Positions 50,018-64,000 of a stretch of 64,000 nt of DNA are shown in pieces. The position numbers were made by a program, and so were the translations under genes. The stretch is taken from NCBI GenBank assembly GCA_010405405.1, contig MU004230.1, forward strand, positions 282,627 through 346,626, in the 5' to 3' direction. Numbering within the stretch: the first letter of the stretch is position 1; each line of letters opens with the position of its first letter. Source of the stretch: Microthyrium microscopicum (Eukaryota; Ascomycota; Dothideomycetes; Microthyriales; Microthyriaceae). The notes beneath the pieces were generated by a model, which saw nothing but the letters and a program-made list of their open reading frames with translations, made no database searches and was not told where the DNA came from.

Positions 50018-51711
50018 ATGCTCCGGCTGTCTACTGTACTCTCACTCATCCTCCTCTCCCCCGCTCTGGTCATTGCCCATCCGGCAACGCCAACACATAC
50101 CCCATCATGGCGCAAACTCACTGATTCCATAATATCCAGAATTTGGCCTGCCCCAGATACCCCAACGACACACCAATCGAGTCATAGCAGTGTCAAACAG
50201 ACTTCTTTGCCTGCTGCCTTAGCGGCACGCGACATAGTTTTGCGCTTCAACCTGACCTCATTCGACCAAGCGCTGGCCATTAAAGAAGCTGCCGATGATC
50301 TATTCCTTGATATCTGGGAGTTTACAGACAATTGGGTCGATATCCGCGTTGCCAAAGACGTGGTAATTACCCAGTCCCACGTCCCGTTGTTTTAGTGTCC
50401 CATTAACTGACCCGCTTGCGCTAGGTCCCTTCGCTCATTAACCTTCTTCCTTCATCTCTCAGCAAAGCATATGCTCCATTAATACCCGAGTCTGTACTCA
50501 CGTCCTTGATAACCTCTTCATACCCGTATTCAACACCTGGCTCCTTTAGCCCTTCACTTCGAACTCATACCCGAGAACTCTTTTTTGCCGACTATCAGCC
50601 TATTTCAGTTATATACCCATGGCTACGTCTTCTTGCCAGCCTATTTTCTACTCATGTCCAAGTTATCACTGTCGGGAAAAGTTTCGAAGGTCGAGATATT
50701 CTCGGCCTACGCATAGGCACCAGGCCAAAAAACAATGACCAACCAATCCGTCCTAAGAAGACTATTTTAGTTACTGGAGGCTCACACGCTCGGGAATGGA
50801 TATCGACTAGCTCTGTCAACTATCTTGCTTACACGCTGGCAACTTCATATGGCAAAGAGCATATTTACACGTCCATGGTAGACGCCTTTGACTGGATCTT
50901 CATCCCAGTCGCCAATCCAGACGGGTACGAATACACGTGGACCACTGATCGTTTATGGCGCAAAAATCGGCAACCAACACCATTGCGCTTCTGCAAAGGC
51001 ATTGATCTAGATCGTAGCTATGCCTTCAAATTTGACCAAGGCAGTGCTGGCAATCCCTGCAGCGAAAGCTATGCCGGTCAAGGTGCATGGGAAGCAACCG
51101 AGTCGGTCCAGATACGTGACTGGGCTCGCAATCGGACTGCTAGTGGCGCCGAGTTTGTCGCATACTTGGACCTTCATTCGTACTCGCAACAAGTATTATA
51201 CCCATACTCGTATTCCTGTGACGTCGATCCTCCAACGCTCGAAAACCTTGAAGAACTCGCGTTTGGTTTGGTCAAAGCCATGTACCACTCATCTCATGGA
51301 AGTACATATCGACCCGCCGCAGCCTGTGAAGGCAATGTTGCAATGGACGCACACGGCAAAGTCTCACGCATGCCACGACTAGAGGCAGGTGGTGGCAGCG
51401 CACTGGACTGGTTCTACGAGGAAATGAAGATTCGGTATTCATATCAGATCAAGCTAAGAGATACTGGCAGTTATGGTTTCTTACTGCCAAAAGATCAGAT
51501 CATTCCAACTGGCAAGGAAGTCGTAGCAGCTGCAACATATCTCGGCCGCTTTCTACTAGGCGAAATCGGCTTTTCGGAGGAAGATATAGGTGGCGCATCG
51601 TCATTATTCCGCAAACCTCAACATTCAGAGAGCTCAGCGGCCACTGGCGATGAATCTGCGGAAGAAGCTCCTGCAATGTTGACGCAGTTTGAGTTACGAA
51701 GAAAACGATGA
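50018..51711 (+). CDS. ECM14: Inactive metallocarboxypeptidase Ecm14
   Basis: Two exons: 50018-50362 and 50425-51711, 543 residues. Signal peptide (MLRLSTVLSLILLSPALVIA). The propeptide spans about 70-190. The M14 carboxypeptidase domain has zinc ligands in GGSHAREWIS (HxxE) and the second His in YLDLHSYSQ. VANPDGYEYTW, LWRKNRQ and GIDLDRSYAF follow the family pattern. The catalytic Glu, normally in FELRDTG, is Lys here (QIKLRDTGSYGF). This loss is known for the fungal Ecm14 family, which keeps the zinc site but is a pseudoenzyme linked to cell wall or vacuolar functions in yeast. The start is the ATG of the signal peptide. Confidence 0.93.
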
Positions 51712-54813: not shown

Positions 54814-55589
54814 TCATGATGATCTTGCCGCATCATGTTTCTTTAGCGCATCCGGGCCAAAAGACATTGGAAGAAGCTGTAAAGTAAAGTCAATAAGCAA
54901 TACATGAAGAGATGTTCGAAGACTTACATCGCCCAAAGTCTTGACAGTGTACTTTCCGTCTTTATTAAACATGAAAATTGGAACCGAGAGATCGCAGAAT
55001 TCCCGAATGAACTGTCGACACATTCCACAAGGACTGCATGGCTCATCAATATTCGTTGAGACTGCTATGGCCTTAAAGTCCCCAAGGCCCAATCCAGAGA
55101 ATATGGCGGTGCCGAAAGCAACTCTTTCGGCGCATGTTCCAACAGGATAAGCCGCATTTTCGATATTAGCTCCTGATATGGTCGATCCTAATGGTGTAGA
55201 TTTGTTGAGAAGTAAAGTACAGCCAACGTTGAATTTGGAGTATGGGCCTGTGATGAGTGAGTGCATTGTCCAAAGGTACGGAGTCAACTATAGCAGATTG
55301 GAGGATCCGCTTTTCGAATGCTCAATGTACACTATCCGATCACTAGATAAGAGCGACTGGCTTTGACGGCAAATGGGTGATACCATAGATCGTGCACTGC
55401 TCAGTGAAATTTTTTATGAAAAGGACGTACAAAGGAGCATTCGAAGGGATACATGTCCTAGATTAGGCTTTTCACAGGTGAGAACTAACAGTATGCCTTT
55501 GCTTTGGCAGCTGTGGCTTCTTTTGATAGCTGTTCGATTTCTTGAACCGTCAGTCCGTGAACATTGGAGCTATCGTCAAGTCCTGACAT
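54814..55589 (-). CDS. Cytidine deaminase
   Basis: Three exons: 55589-55490, 55247-54928 and 54876-54814, 160 residues. Zinc-dependent hydrolysis of cytidine/deoxycytidine to uridine, in pyrimidine salvage. Motifs: YCPYSKFNVGCTLL, GANIENAAYPVGTCAERVAF (zinc Cys and catalytic Glu in CAE) and EPCSPCGMCRQF (the PCxxC zinc pair). The tail LLPMSFGPDAL is standard. The first intron is 242 nt, much longer than others here, but the join gives the exact family sequence AYCPYSKF. Confidence 0.94.
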
Positions 55590-55993: not shown

Positions 55994-56815
55994 TCATTTG
56001 ACAAAGGGCCTACCACCTGGAAGCTTGACGATCAAAACCATGGTACTGTTCTAGGAAACATGTGAGCCGAAGTAATTATAAGTATTCCAGCGCAGAAACC
56101 AGTACTTACCTCCTGTATATCATAATCGGCCAGCGTTAGATCTGTATATCACTGATCAATGATATACTCCCTCAACGTCATCTCTAGAAAAACTTACTAC
56201 GCCCTTTTGCAAGCTGCTTGCCTCCGAAAATCAGCCCCACAGAGTCGGTGTTGACGGCCTTTTCGTTTTTGATTCGTTCAAAGAGTTGCTCCACACTGGT
56301 GGTAACGGGAACATCATTAAGGGTGTAAGTTCGATGAGCATCCTGAACGAAGACATTTTTCAAGACCCGACCCTCATAAGGAGGTGGAGCAATCTCATTA
56401 TTGGGTGGATCTTGAGTCACGACTGTAGGTGGCCGGATTGAAGGGTCGCGTCCAGCGCTGTCAACTCTTGTGATGGTATCATCCTATCGTCATATAAGTC
56501 CAAGTTGATCGAGGCGACTTCTAATCCAAAGACTTACATCTCGGATGTTGTAAGAAGATAGCGGCTTGTCTGAGGATACTGTTAGCATATGGAGCCACAA
56601 GGTTCAAGTATTTACTTAACTTCATTCATTTCTTCCCCAAATACCATGAGGTTGAGGTCCAAAGGGTTTACATAACGTCCCTCTTGTCTTTGAATTCTCA
56701 TAGTAACTAAGCTCTTGAATCGGCTGAGGCCCATCTGTCTCGGAAGACCAGAGAATTCGAATTTCTGGGAGCCATCCAGAGAGACAACGTTGATGTTATC
56801 AAAAACGTCGTCCAT
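55994..56815 (-). CDS. Tandem ubiquitin-like protein with C-terminal Gly-Gly tail
   Basis: Five exons: 56815-56621, 56564-56538, 56483-56198, 56141-56110 and 56050-55994, 198 residues. Ubiquitin-like domain 1, about residues 8-80, ends LMVFGEEMNE then PLSSYNIRDDDTITRV. A Pro-rich linker (RPPTVVTQDPPNNEIAPPPY) follows. Domain 2, about 112-193, matches ubiquitin more closely: VGLIFGGKQLAKGRNLTLAD, YDIQENSTMVLIVKLPGG. Gly192-Gly193 is followed by five residues, RPFVK, like precursors that a protease trims to expose Gly-Gly. Two ubiquitin folds in one short chain with such a tail is the layout of ISG15 in animals. I know no named fungal counterpart, so conjugation is inference. The first intron is the least certain: the alternative reading MNEDKPLSSY would fit ubiquitin better in length but needs a non-canonical site. 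Confidence 0.78.
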
Positions 56816-57625
56816 GCTCAATCAAATCGAGAGACTAGATACGTATGTTTTAGAATAGCGAAAAAGAATTCAGGTACTGGTTTGCACTATGTTTTCAAGG
56901 CTGGGGGTTGAGAAGAAGATATCAAGCTTCAGAGAATGACAGTCACTGCCAAATTATCTGCCAGCCTGCGCCAGAAATGTTTTCTGGATCTCTAATGTTC
57001 TATTACGTGGTTCGAAAGAGGGGAATCGTGAATGGCTCGTACTGGAAGGCTGGATCCGGCGAATGGAACAGTGCTCAACTTGCGCCTTGTCAATTGTTGG
57101 CTCTCGTATGGCAGACTATTCTATGGCCTTATCTAACAGCCAAGCCTCTAGTCTGCAATGCACTTCGGTGAAGATGAGCCTGAAACAGGGTCGCGTTGTT
57201 TTTGGTCAGAGTCGCTTCCATGCATCTGCCGATATGCCTTCCAAGGCTGGATCGGCCTTGGTGGCGGAGCACGTTGTTAGCTTAGCATCAGGCTGAATAT
57301 TTTGCGATACCATTCTATCTTCTTACAGAGTTTCAAAAACAAATCATATGAGAGAATAAACCTTTAGAACTACCATAGGGCGTTATGAGCTTTTCTGAAA
57401 GGCTTTGCTGGATACTCCAAGCATGCATTTGTGTGAAGTCAATCAGCCTACGCTACGTGTCTCGACTTGCTCTTTCTTGATCGCCAAGGAGTTTGAGGCC
57501 GCCTCATTATCTTTCATGTGCAGCCTGGTTATCTCATAACTCATTTCAGACGCTGTGAGTTACTATTGACGGACAATTGTTGAGCAGTCAAACCCAACCG
57601 CATTCGATACAGCGAAGCAAGAGCA
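56816..57625. promoter_or_regulatory. Shared divergent region between UBL and RBR genes
   Basis: 810 bp between the start codons of the tandem ubiquitin-like gene and the RBR ligase gene, which point away from each other. It probably contains both promoters. No motif could be assigned with confidence. Confidence 0.4.
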
Positions 57626-59185
57626 ATGGCAGAAGAAGAAGCTTTTGAGAACTGGAAAATATGTCACAAAGTCAACATTCAGTTCCATCAAAAGCAAGAA
57701 GTTTTAGACCAGGAAACATCAAAGAAATCTCGATGCATATGGTGCAAGAACTCAGAGGACATGGACGGCTCACTACGTTCCAACTTCTCGTCTACTGTTG
57801 TTCAGTGTCTAGCTGAACATAAACCGACCGACCCCTGGGCTACGTTGACTTGTCCGGATTGCGAGGTTGATTTAGTGCAGAGGATAAGTGAGCGAAAACA
57901 GGAATGCTTTGCAGAAGGATGTCGCCGGCTAGTACAAGTTGATCAGTGGAAGGTTAAACAGCGATTAGGTCCATCTGAACTGACTGATTCGTAAGTCAGT
58001 TCTCAGGAAATACTTCCAAGTATTTGGCACTGACTGAAAATAGATACCTCAGGCTTCTGAACAAATTCGCCGTCATTTCTTGCGAAATGTGCTTCGACGA
58101 TATTCCGATTGAAGAAATCACATCCCACACAGCGACTCCGCAGTGCCAACACGACCCTACAATGTGTGGCGACTGTTTATCACGCTATGTCACACATGAG
58201 ATTGAGACCGGAAATTGGCAATGTATAAAATGTCCAGATCGTCTATGTTCTCAAGAACTAAAAGGTCGCGACATTCGGGATCTAGTATCCATAGATGTCT
58301 TCAAAGTGTCAGTGATCCTCAGGACTATGTTTTGTGTTGCTCTTTGACTGACCATCGCAGCTATGATGATCAAATAACAAGGTCAAATTTGGCGAAAAAT
58401 CCTAATTTCAGATGGTGCATTGGAAAATGCGGTAACGGACAACTGGTCGCAGGTGTTCCAGATATGCCTCCACTAGAAGTCGTACCTCCAGCAACAGCTG
58501 AAAAGAAAAGCTTAGTTGGAAGCAAAGCCACCAGGAAGCGACAGAGTATATTTGGCGCTGTTCATCAAACCAGAAATGATAGAGGCCGTCACTTTCTCAT
58601 GCCGCCTGAGGTTGATGGTGTAAATACACCTAAAGCCAAAGCACCAACCTTGAGAGACGTCCAAGCAGCACAATGGCGATGTACAAAATGTTCTAAGTTG
58701 AACTGCTTTAGATGTAAAGAAGAAGCACATCCAGGAGAAACCTGTGAGCAGTCTCGTCAATTAAATCCACTCAGGGGCGATAATGAAAGAGAAAGAAAAC
58801 GAGTATCTAAGAAATGCCCGAAAAAGTGGTGTGGAAGATATATTGGCAAGACTTACGGTTGTGTTCATATGCATTGTAATCCCAAGATTGGTAGGTTGTT
58901 CTACGACTCTGTGCTTTCGCATCATTCATTCTAACTAAAGTTTTAGGCGGTTGCGGTGTAAAGTTTTGCTGGAAATGTAAAGTGATCTTTCCGAAGATAA
59001 ATGACTCGGAAATGTATCATTCATGGCAGTACAAGCATTTGAATACATGTCCGATGTTAGGGGGAAAGTATGAAACCACGGGAACGATGGCCGCACCCGG
59101 TGCTAGCGACGCACAGTATGAGGCGGACTGGAGTATAGACCCTTTATATGAGTCTGGAGATTCAGGAAGTGAGCAATGGAGATAG
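57626..59185 (+). CDS. RBR-type E3 ubiquitin ligase (RING1-IBR-RING2)
   Basis: Four exons: 57626-57990, 58044-58307, 58361-58890 and 58947-59185, 465 residues. The N-terminal part has a Cys cluster (CIWCKNSED, LTCPDCEVD, ECFAEGCRRL). RING1 (about 140-195): ISCEMCFDDIPIEEITSHTA, CQHDPTMCGDCL and CIKCPDRLC. IBR: FRWCIGKCGNGQ and, after a disordered insert, WRCTKCSKLNCFRCKEEAHP then GETC. RING2: KKCPKKWCGRYIGKTYGCVH, MHCNPKIGGCGVKFCWKC. The active Cys, which forms a thioester with ubiquitin, is Cys377 in YGCVHMHC. It should transfer ubiquitin or a ubiquitin-like protein to targets. Its divergent neighbour is the tandem ubiquitin-like gene, so the two may work together. The 58307 donor (GTCAGT) was chosen because it alone keeps frame. 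Confidence 0.9.
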
Positions 59186-62917: not shown

Positions 62918-63036
62918 CATTAAACGCTCTGACCTGATATCGTGAACTTTGGTCGCGTCAAACCTGCCAGTCTAAACTCGCGACAGCTGCAATATCATCC
63001 ACCAACCTACAAATTACTCCGTCAAAAACTGCAGGT

Positions 63037-64000
63037 ATGGCTCAGGACTTTGCAGATTACACGAATCCGGCCATCAGTGTCGTCAAAATTAACCTGGTAG
63101 GGCGTGATGGCAATGCGCACCACACCTTTGCGCCAGCCATCACTGAGAGCATCTACGAAAAGGACCACATATTTGGCTACAAATCGCCAAAAATCCACAT
63201 TTCGTTCCGCGCGGATGATATGCGCCCTTCAGTCAGCATCAAATTTGCCAAGAAACTGACTGTGCAAGAGGCAGAAAAGCTACTCGGCGTTCAAATTCCA
63301 GGCGAGGCTGCCGACCAAGTCGCCGATGAAGCTGCCAAAATTCTGGACATCGAAGGCCCCCTTCGCGAATACCTCCCCGAAGATGCTTTCGCGGAGCCCA
63401 GCAAAGATGCCATGCAAGGCGTACAAGACGGTGCCTGGACGCCTCCGGGCGAAAAGCACCACGAATACACCTTCGAAGGCCGCCAGATGCAAGTCTGGGG
63501 TGCCAGCCTACGCGACCGCCGCGCAATCGCCATCCTCAAGAACATGAAAATACTAATCCCAATGTTCATCGAAGGAGGCACTGTTGATTACCTTGACGAC
63601 GACGATGTCCCCGAGCACAAGTGGACCATTGACCGCTGGAAGGTCTTCCTCCTCTACCAAGTCACGAACTCCACCTACTCCCTCGCCGGCTTCTGCACAT
63701 CCTACCGTCTACCCATACCTACACCCAACGCCGCCCTTCTCCCCAATCAGTATCCTGCGCGCGAACGTATATCGCAATTCATCATACTCCCACCCTACCA
63801 ACACTCCGCCCACGGAATCCACCTCTACAACGCCGTGACTGCGACCTTCCTTGCCGACCCACTCACATTCGAAATTACAGTCGAAGATCCCAACGAAGCA
63901 TTCGACTACTTACGCGATTACTGCGATTTCCACCGCCTACTCGCTGACGCGGAATTTGCCGCGCTCGCTCTGCCAGCGCGCATTCCTACCGAAGACCTCA
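63037..64000 (+). CDS. HAT1: Histone acetyltransferase type B catalytic subunit, partial
   Basis: Open from the ATG at 63037 to the window edge, 321 codons, without an intron. Hat1 acetylates Lys5 and Lys12 of newly made histone H4, with its WD40 partner Hat2. Sequence signs: ISVVKINLVGRDGNAHHTFA (N-terminal Hat1 domain), TFEGRQMQVWGASLRDRRAI, LKNMKILIPMFIEGGT, RWKVFLLYQV, SLAGFCTSYRL, ISQFIILPPYQHSAHGIHLY (acetyl-CoA motif A, usually QxxGxG/H) and FEITVEDPNEAFDYLRDYCD. The C-terminal part is missing only because the window ends. Codons end mostly in A/C over the whole visible part. A TIR element sits just upstream in the promoter. Confidence 0.95.
   Translation, partial: MAQDFADYTNPAISVVKINLVGRDGNAHHTFAPAITESIYEKDHIFGYKSPKIHISFRADDMRPSVSIKFAKKLTVQEAEKLLGVQIPGEAADQVADEAAKILDIEGPLREYLPEDAFAEPSKDAMQGVQDGAWTPPGEKHHEYTFEGRQMQVWGASLRDRRAIAILKNMKILIPMFIEGGTVDYLDDDDVPEHKWTIDRWKVFLLYQVTNSTYSLAGFCTSYRLPIPTPNAALLPNQYPARERISQFIILPPYQHSAHGIHLYNAVTATFLADPLTFEITVEDPNEAFDYLRDYCDFHRLLADAEFAALALPARIPTEDL

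Follow-up and report, generated by a model that had tools for sequence, protein, structure and literature searches.

The ubiquitin-like modifier ISG15 is described as confined to vertebrates and has the conjugating end LRLRGG, and HHARI, an RBR enzyme, is named among its ligases (PMC9722776), in agreement with an earlier note on this DNA that counts RBR enzymes among them. Activation by ubiquitin or by ubiquitin-like proteins is described as common to RBR ligases and acts via the I44 patch, where RING1 and IBR meet; HOIL-1 is activated by M1-linked di-ubiquitin, and contacts to the C-terminal arginines of ubiquitin seem to matter less in HOIL-1 and are critical in HOIP (PMC9834252). Fungi appear in the accessible text of PMC2904391 merely as future work on RBR genes. 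Here, we describe a gene whose ubiquitin-like product has one clear ubiquitin fold and probably a second, lying head-to-head with a gene for an RBR ubiquitin ligase in a 64,000-nucleotide stretch of contig MU004230.1 (assembly GCA_010405405.1, positions 282,627 to 346,626) of the ascomycete Microthyrium microscopicum. This whole stretch is referred to as the window and coordinates without a contig or locus name are positions in it. Both genes appear real and the ubiquitin-like (Ubl) gene looks intact. The reading that we tentatively favour is that its product is a non-covalent look-alike of ubiquitin.

The Ubl gene occupies 55994..56815 on the minus strand and encodes 198 amino acids (aa) in a splicing model accompanied by a Pfam ubiquitin match and by codon scores. 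As judged from sequence, the C-terminal half of the protein is clearly a ubiquitin domain: residues 119-190 match Pfam PF00240 with E=7.9e-14 (51.6 bits against a cut-off of 25.4), and the closest solved structures are ubiquitins, both among the best 60 of 339 and among the best 60 of 113 relatives, where no row is named ISG15 or NEDD8. In the alignment LIF-GGKQL is retained around I44 and K48, the residues at 67-71 are hydrophobic, and the ubiquitin-equivalent positions 68, 72 and 74 are held by Val, Lys and Pro. The spliced translation ends in LIVKLPGGRPFVK and a stop, so that the C-terminus reads LIVKLPGG plus RPFVK where ubiquitin and ISG15 have the equivalent LRLRGG. The codons of Gly192-Gly193 (56012..56017, minus strand) lie by translation and alignment at the place of ubiquitin Gly75-Gly76 and are followed by RPFVK and the stop. 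The LPGG plus five residues that had been described at the end of the minus-strand protein are accordingly present and in register with ubiquitin, and the ends of the two genes at 55994 and 59185 agree exactly with those first given.

We propose, with a little less than even confidence, that the Ubl protein is derived from ubiquitin and acts non-covalently as a look-alike of ubiquitin or di-ubiquitin, perhaps on the neighbouring RBR. The product of the minus-strand gene would combine a clear ubiquitin fold with a probable one across a proline-rich linker, and the I44-type surface of the second domain (the first has Met at the same place) would bind a receptor for ubiquitin. Foremost among the candidate receptors is the allosteric site for ubiquitin on the neighbouring RBR, a ligase that may be activated in trans in much the way that ubiquitin or a Ubl activates parkin, HOIL-1, RNF216 and HHARI. 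That the protein retains the I44 surface and has a changed tail agrees with non-covalent mimicry of ubiquitin. Lys72 and Pro74, seen against the selection data of PMC3731359, fit a protein that is not selected for handling by E1, E2 and E3 enzymes. In line with this, an extra Uba1-type E1 was not found among the eight ThiF loci of the genome.

Several observations weigh against this proposal. The main one is that a Gly-Gly exactly at the domain end, with five residues after it, would be needless for a purely non-covalent protein and speaks for a modifier. Of nine aligned ubiquitin-type domains of our own choosing (eight of the genome, from 18 loci, plus ubiquitin), only three end in GG, namely ubiquitin, NEDD8 and the Ubl protein. 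The other adverse points are the frequency of such gene pairs under random placement, given further below, and the faintness of the first fold. The latter would lie for the most part in exons 1 and 2 (56538..56815, minus strand; residues 1-74), as indicated by a weak profile match and a model of exon 1, with a few residues extending into exon 3. Residues 1-90 alone gave no match to any Pfam family up to E=10; with the whole protein at E=10 Pfam counts two ubiquitin stretches, the position of the second not being given. Against a home-made ubiquitin profile, 19 of 10,000 shuffles scored as well as this segment or better, and 41 of 10,000 did as well when the second domain of the Ubl protein was taken out of the profile. 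As a control, 794 windows of 90 aa were taken from open frames in the loci retrieved, and most of those that scored above the segment come from known Ubl genes. Once the second domain had been removed from the profile, the segment was also outscored by a repeat in locus L019 and by a frame with no known Ubl (L031 42-1076), which counts against the first fold.

Exons 1 and 3 were folded separately, each from a single sequence without alignment. The model of exon 1 (65 aa) has the beta-beta-alpha-beta order of the ubiquitin fold, with a predicted local distance difference test score (pLDDT) of 81 and a predicted template modelling score (pTM) of 0.64. A Foldseek search with it against the PDB returned 0 matches at E<=0.001, again an adverse result; the top match was a ribosomal protein (E 0.4) and the Ubl domain 1wy8 came at rank 12 (E 2.8). 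The model of exon 3 (95 aa) was poor (pLDDT 65, pTM 0.38; top Foldseek match a Ubl domain with E 0.72) and was set aside. From sequence and model, the N-terminal half is a probable ubiquitin fold. Two ubiquitin folds in about 198 residues had been claimed, with structure prediction of both suggested as a check: the second is borne out by its profile match, and the first turns out weaker than stated, without a Pfam match or a significant fold match; prediction gave a ubiquitin-like order for exon 1 and nothing that could be used for exon 3. Between the halves lies a linker of about 30 residues, rich in proline, which runs from the end of the first fold near residue 82, a boundary that is uncertain, to the start of the second near 114.

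The RBR ubiquitin ligase gene occupies 57626..59185 on the plus strand and encodes 465 aa in a splice model of four exons (57626-57990, 58044-58307, 58361-58890 and 58947-59185). An alternative last acceptor keeps the frame open and makes the product two residues longer. The joined frame has the top codon score of the six, at -0.05. The protein has a Pfam IBR match (E=6.3e-10), its RING1 resembles RNF144A in the PDB (E=2.4e-5 and 1.4e-4) and its RING2 part weakly resembles parkin (E=0.012). With ligand and catalytic roles that we take from the RBR consensus, the zinc ligand set is full: C135, C138, C156, H158, C163, C166, C185 and C190 in RING1, C229, C233, C317, C320, C325, C328, H333 and C338 in the IBR, and C362, C367, C382, C389, C394, C397, H417 (or H411) and C421 in RING2. 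The candidate catalytic residue is Cys377 of RING2, in YGCVHMHC, whose TGT codon lies at 58860..58862. A complete plus-strand RBR with its active Cys had been claimed, and the full ligand set agrees with this, the role of Cys377 being presumed from the same consensus. The IBR carries an insert of 83 residues between C233 and C317 (residues 234-316; 58431-58679 on the plus strand, by the splice model). The other matches of the protein in the genome are of partial length and 25-37% identity, and the RBR gene is therefore not a recent duplicate.

The two start codons are divergent and 810 bp apart, as the head-to-head arrangement originally described implies. The interval between them (56816..57625) has codon scores of -0.157 to -0.272 in its six frames, under those of both genes. 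A family search of the genome, which comprises 20 contigs, gave at least 29 IBR matches at 21 loci (19 above the cut-off) and at least 22 ubiquitin matches at 18 loci. The match points of the Ubl and RBR genes lie 2,391 bp from each other, against 197 kb for the next nearest such pair. When the 21 IBR/RBR and 18 ubiquitin loci were placed uniformly at random on 36.9 Mb in 20,000 trials, a pair within 2.5 kb arose in 4.9% of them (3.0% within 1.5 kb and 10.4% within 5 kb); this is the adverse frequency announced above. The other IBR/RBR loci were surveyed as 19 regions of 6.2-9.9 kb each, and no ubiquitin-profile segment above the inclusion threshold was found near any of these 20 loci, where short exons or masked bases (in L019) could hide one. 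Two candidates for a Ubl near another RBR were rejected, L019 7961-8569 as a low-complexity repeat and L010 5955-6101 for want of a Pfam match. A separate observation is that L018 (G000:C15:602000-611900) harbours one IBR match on each strand, with about 2.4 kb between them (605601-605774, minus, and 608208-608369, plus).

With a single pair in this genome and a chance of 4.9%, the linkage is a lone observation and no more than mildly surprising. We consider it slightly the better bet that the two genes are adjacent by chance and that the role of the Ubl protein is unrelated to the RBR, an explanation that concerns the pairing only and overlaps the other readings. Besides the simulated frequencies, it draws on the distance of the next nearest pair and on the lack of a second pair in the surveyed regions. 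A coincidence of about 5% is nevertheless uncommon, the two genes share one pathway, and both are unusual, the RBR because its matches are partial at 25-37% and the Ubl gene because its best matches are ubiquitin. That the Ubl protein and the neighbouring RBR are functionally paired is a tentative proposition, rather below even, and the evidence for their joint action, or for a ubiquitin-like attachment of the Ubl protein, is weak. Relatives of either protein were not found in viral contigs (five stretches matched a pattern and none was confirmed), nor were relatives of the DNA found among plasmids, both being collections without fungal genomes. In the literature searched, which lacked many subscription papers, we saw no fungal pair of tandem-Ubl and RBR genes described.

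The capacity of the genome to conjugate such a protein may be read from its E1 enzymes. A ThiF search gave 11 matches at eight loci, and the Uba1 gene (C3:2500349-2503003) is the only frame among them with two ThiF domains; a second Uba1-type E1 (UBA7/UBE1L-like) was not found at the eight loci. Further loci are Uba2 (with an SCCH domain), Uba4 (with a rhodanese domain) and Atg7. One more locus is read as Uba3, which the pocket comparison supports, and three loci are by our own reading Aos1, Ula1 and a TcdA-like protein. Matches to the E2 family UQ_con number 29, counted as matches and not as genes. The E1 comparison covers the Uba1 and Uba3 types, with the SUMO, Urm1 and Atg7 E1s left aside. 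The pocket for Arg72 is kept in the genome's Uba1: the Asn, Gln, Tyr and Asp that precede the catalytic Cys in the solved Uba1 chains, which we take to be yeast, all recur in it, the residue numbers of the paper being placed by counting back from Cys600. The genome's Uba3 has Gln-Ser-Lys where the solved chain has Asn-Ala-Arg; we take the latter to be Asn188 to Arg190, which would put the Lys of the genome's Uba3 at the place of Arg190.

The tail code can be set beside published selections, as reported in PMC3731359. Arg72 was kept by the ubiquitin E1 in all clones of an earlier selection, none of the 58 clones selected with the NEDD8 E1 carried Arg, Lys or His at that position, both E1s were relaxed at positions 71, 73 and 74, and replacement of Arg74 or Gly75 blocked the transfer from E2 to HECT and RING/U-box ligases. 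Residue 72 of the Ubl protein, a Lys, is thus unlike the kinds selected by either the ubiquitin E1 (Arg) or the NEDD8 E1 (uncharged). Lys72 and Pro74, the kept Uba1 pocket and these selection data together suggest that the VKLPGG end is poorly suited to these E1 and E3 enzymes. They make conjugation less likely, with the provisos that Lys is still positively charged and that the enzymes of the selections were not those of this fungus.

These data bear directly on the alternative that the Ubl protein is a covalent modifier of ISG15-like layout, in which a deubiquitinase would trim RPFVK, an E1 (probably Uba1) would activate LPGG, and an E2 and perhaps the neighbouring RBR would pass it on to targets. 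The exact register of its Gly-Gly with ubiquitin Gly75-76, the short tail, the kept K48 and the completeness of the RBR all agree with this, as do the place of the RBR enzyme HHARI among ISG15 ligases (PMC9722776) and the relaxed E1 selectivity at 74. Its difficulties are Lys72, disfavoured in the selections by both E1s, the block of transfer to HECT and RING/U-box E3s by non-native residues at 74 or 75 (both PMC3731359), the kept Arg72 pocket of the genome's Uba1, the Lys of its Uba3 at the presumed Arg190 place, and the single Uba1-type E1. We regard it as less likely than the non-covalent reading and as a serious rival to it. The ISG15-like modifier-ligase pair proposed in the earlier note thus holds up mostly in its anatomy (Gly-Gly, tail and RBR) and fares less well in its function, in view of Lys72, Pro74 and the lone Uba1-type E1. 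Its most specific form would be a fungal tandem-ubiquitin modifier with the altered code VKLPGG, poorly handled by standard E1 and E3 enzymes and passed on by its own divergently transcribed RBR; a layout like that of ISG15 would then have evolved independently in a non-vertebrate. This form appears decidedly improbable to us.

The five exons of the Ubl gene (56815-56621, 56564-56538, 56483-56198, 56141-56110 and 56050-55994, minus strand) form a single joined frame, and all four introns are GT..AG with lengths of 54-59 nt. Introns this short, together with the ubiquitin-system genes identified, indicate a filamentous fungus. Intron 1 (56565..56620) needs an AAG acceptor because a CAG shortly before it breaks the frame. 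The joined frame has the top codon score among the six (0.083 against -0.096 or lower). As a signal this is mild. Of stop-free 195-nt stretches drawn at random from the window, with coding ones among them, 34% reach the score of exon 1 (0.055) and 8.5% that of the first 195 nt of exon 3 (0.167). The guanine plus cytosine content of the window is 44%. The best other matches of the gene in the genome are ubiquitin itself. A decaying or mis-spliced gene without a working product, to which the out-of-frame CAG acceptor and the high divergence of the first domain might point, is most improbable given five exons in one open frame with the best codon score of six and a well-conserved second domain.

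Some further loci of the ubiquitin family were seen in the genome. A free-standing protein of about 80 aa at L033 1433-1675, plus strand (G000:C6:1920500-1923500), is NEDD8-like by eye and ends in LILALRG, with a single Gly; a second, divergent small protein at L035 1432-1707, minus strand (G000:C6:1086000-1089000), likewise NEDD8-like by eye, ends in MILSISG, also with a single Gly. At L034 1156-2162, minus strand (G000:C7:2391000-2394000), a frame with a ubiquitin domain (E=5e-16) adjoins a 208-aa open frame (KPYVVKVYAGGVNVISGEP...) without a significant Pfam match, and the two may belong to one multi-domain protein. Other genes of the window have no bearing on ubiquitin: an M14 zinc carboxypeptidase at 50425-51708 (plus), a cytidine deaminase-type protein at 54817-55287 (minus) and a Hat1 N-terminal domain at 62938-63999 (plus).

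Compared with ubiquitin, the second domain of the Ubl protein is 39-40% identical to the genome's own polyubiquitin units and shares GKQL around K48, the Gly-Gly end and, among the best 60 of 113 solved relatives, a closest kinship with ubiquitins; it differs in VKLPGG for LRLRGG, in the second, barely recognisable domain of the protein and in the tail RPFVK. With ISG15 the Ubl protein shares a Gly-Gly, a short tail and, if its probable first fold holds, the pair of ubiquitin folds. The hinge between the folds of ISG15 has about six residues, a short one beside the linker of about 30 in the Ubl protein. The dedicated Uba1-type E1 of ISG15 (UBE1L/UBA7) was not found among the eight ThiF loci, and the end VKLPGG-RPFVK differs from the LRLRGG given in PMC9722776. 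Since end motif, E1 and hinge all differ, the Ubl protein is therefore not to be filed as ISG15, though it may work in a similar way. If it were conjugated, the tandem-Ubl and Gly-Gly layout would have arisen more than once, and a genetically easy fungal model would be at hand.

The RBR is like RNF144A and other RBRs in its RING1 match and its full RING1-IBR-RING2 ligand set, and unlike them in the 83 residues between Cys233 and Cys317 and in a first RING2 pair of the form C-x4-C. With RBRs of the parkin and HOIL-1 type the locus shares the combination of an RBR with ubiquitin-like domains, activation by ubiquitin or a Ubl being described as common to RBRs (PMC9834252). The difference is that the Ubl is here a separate, divergently transcribed gene. 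If the Ubl protein acts non-covalently, as we tentatively favour, it could serve an RBR ligase as a natural Ubl acting in trans, and this form of regulation would be of wide interest.

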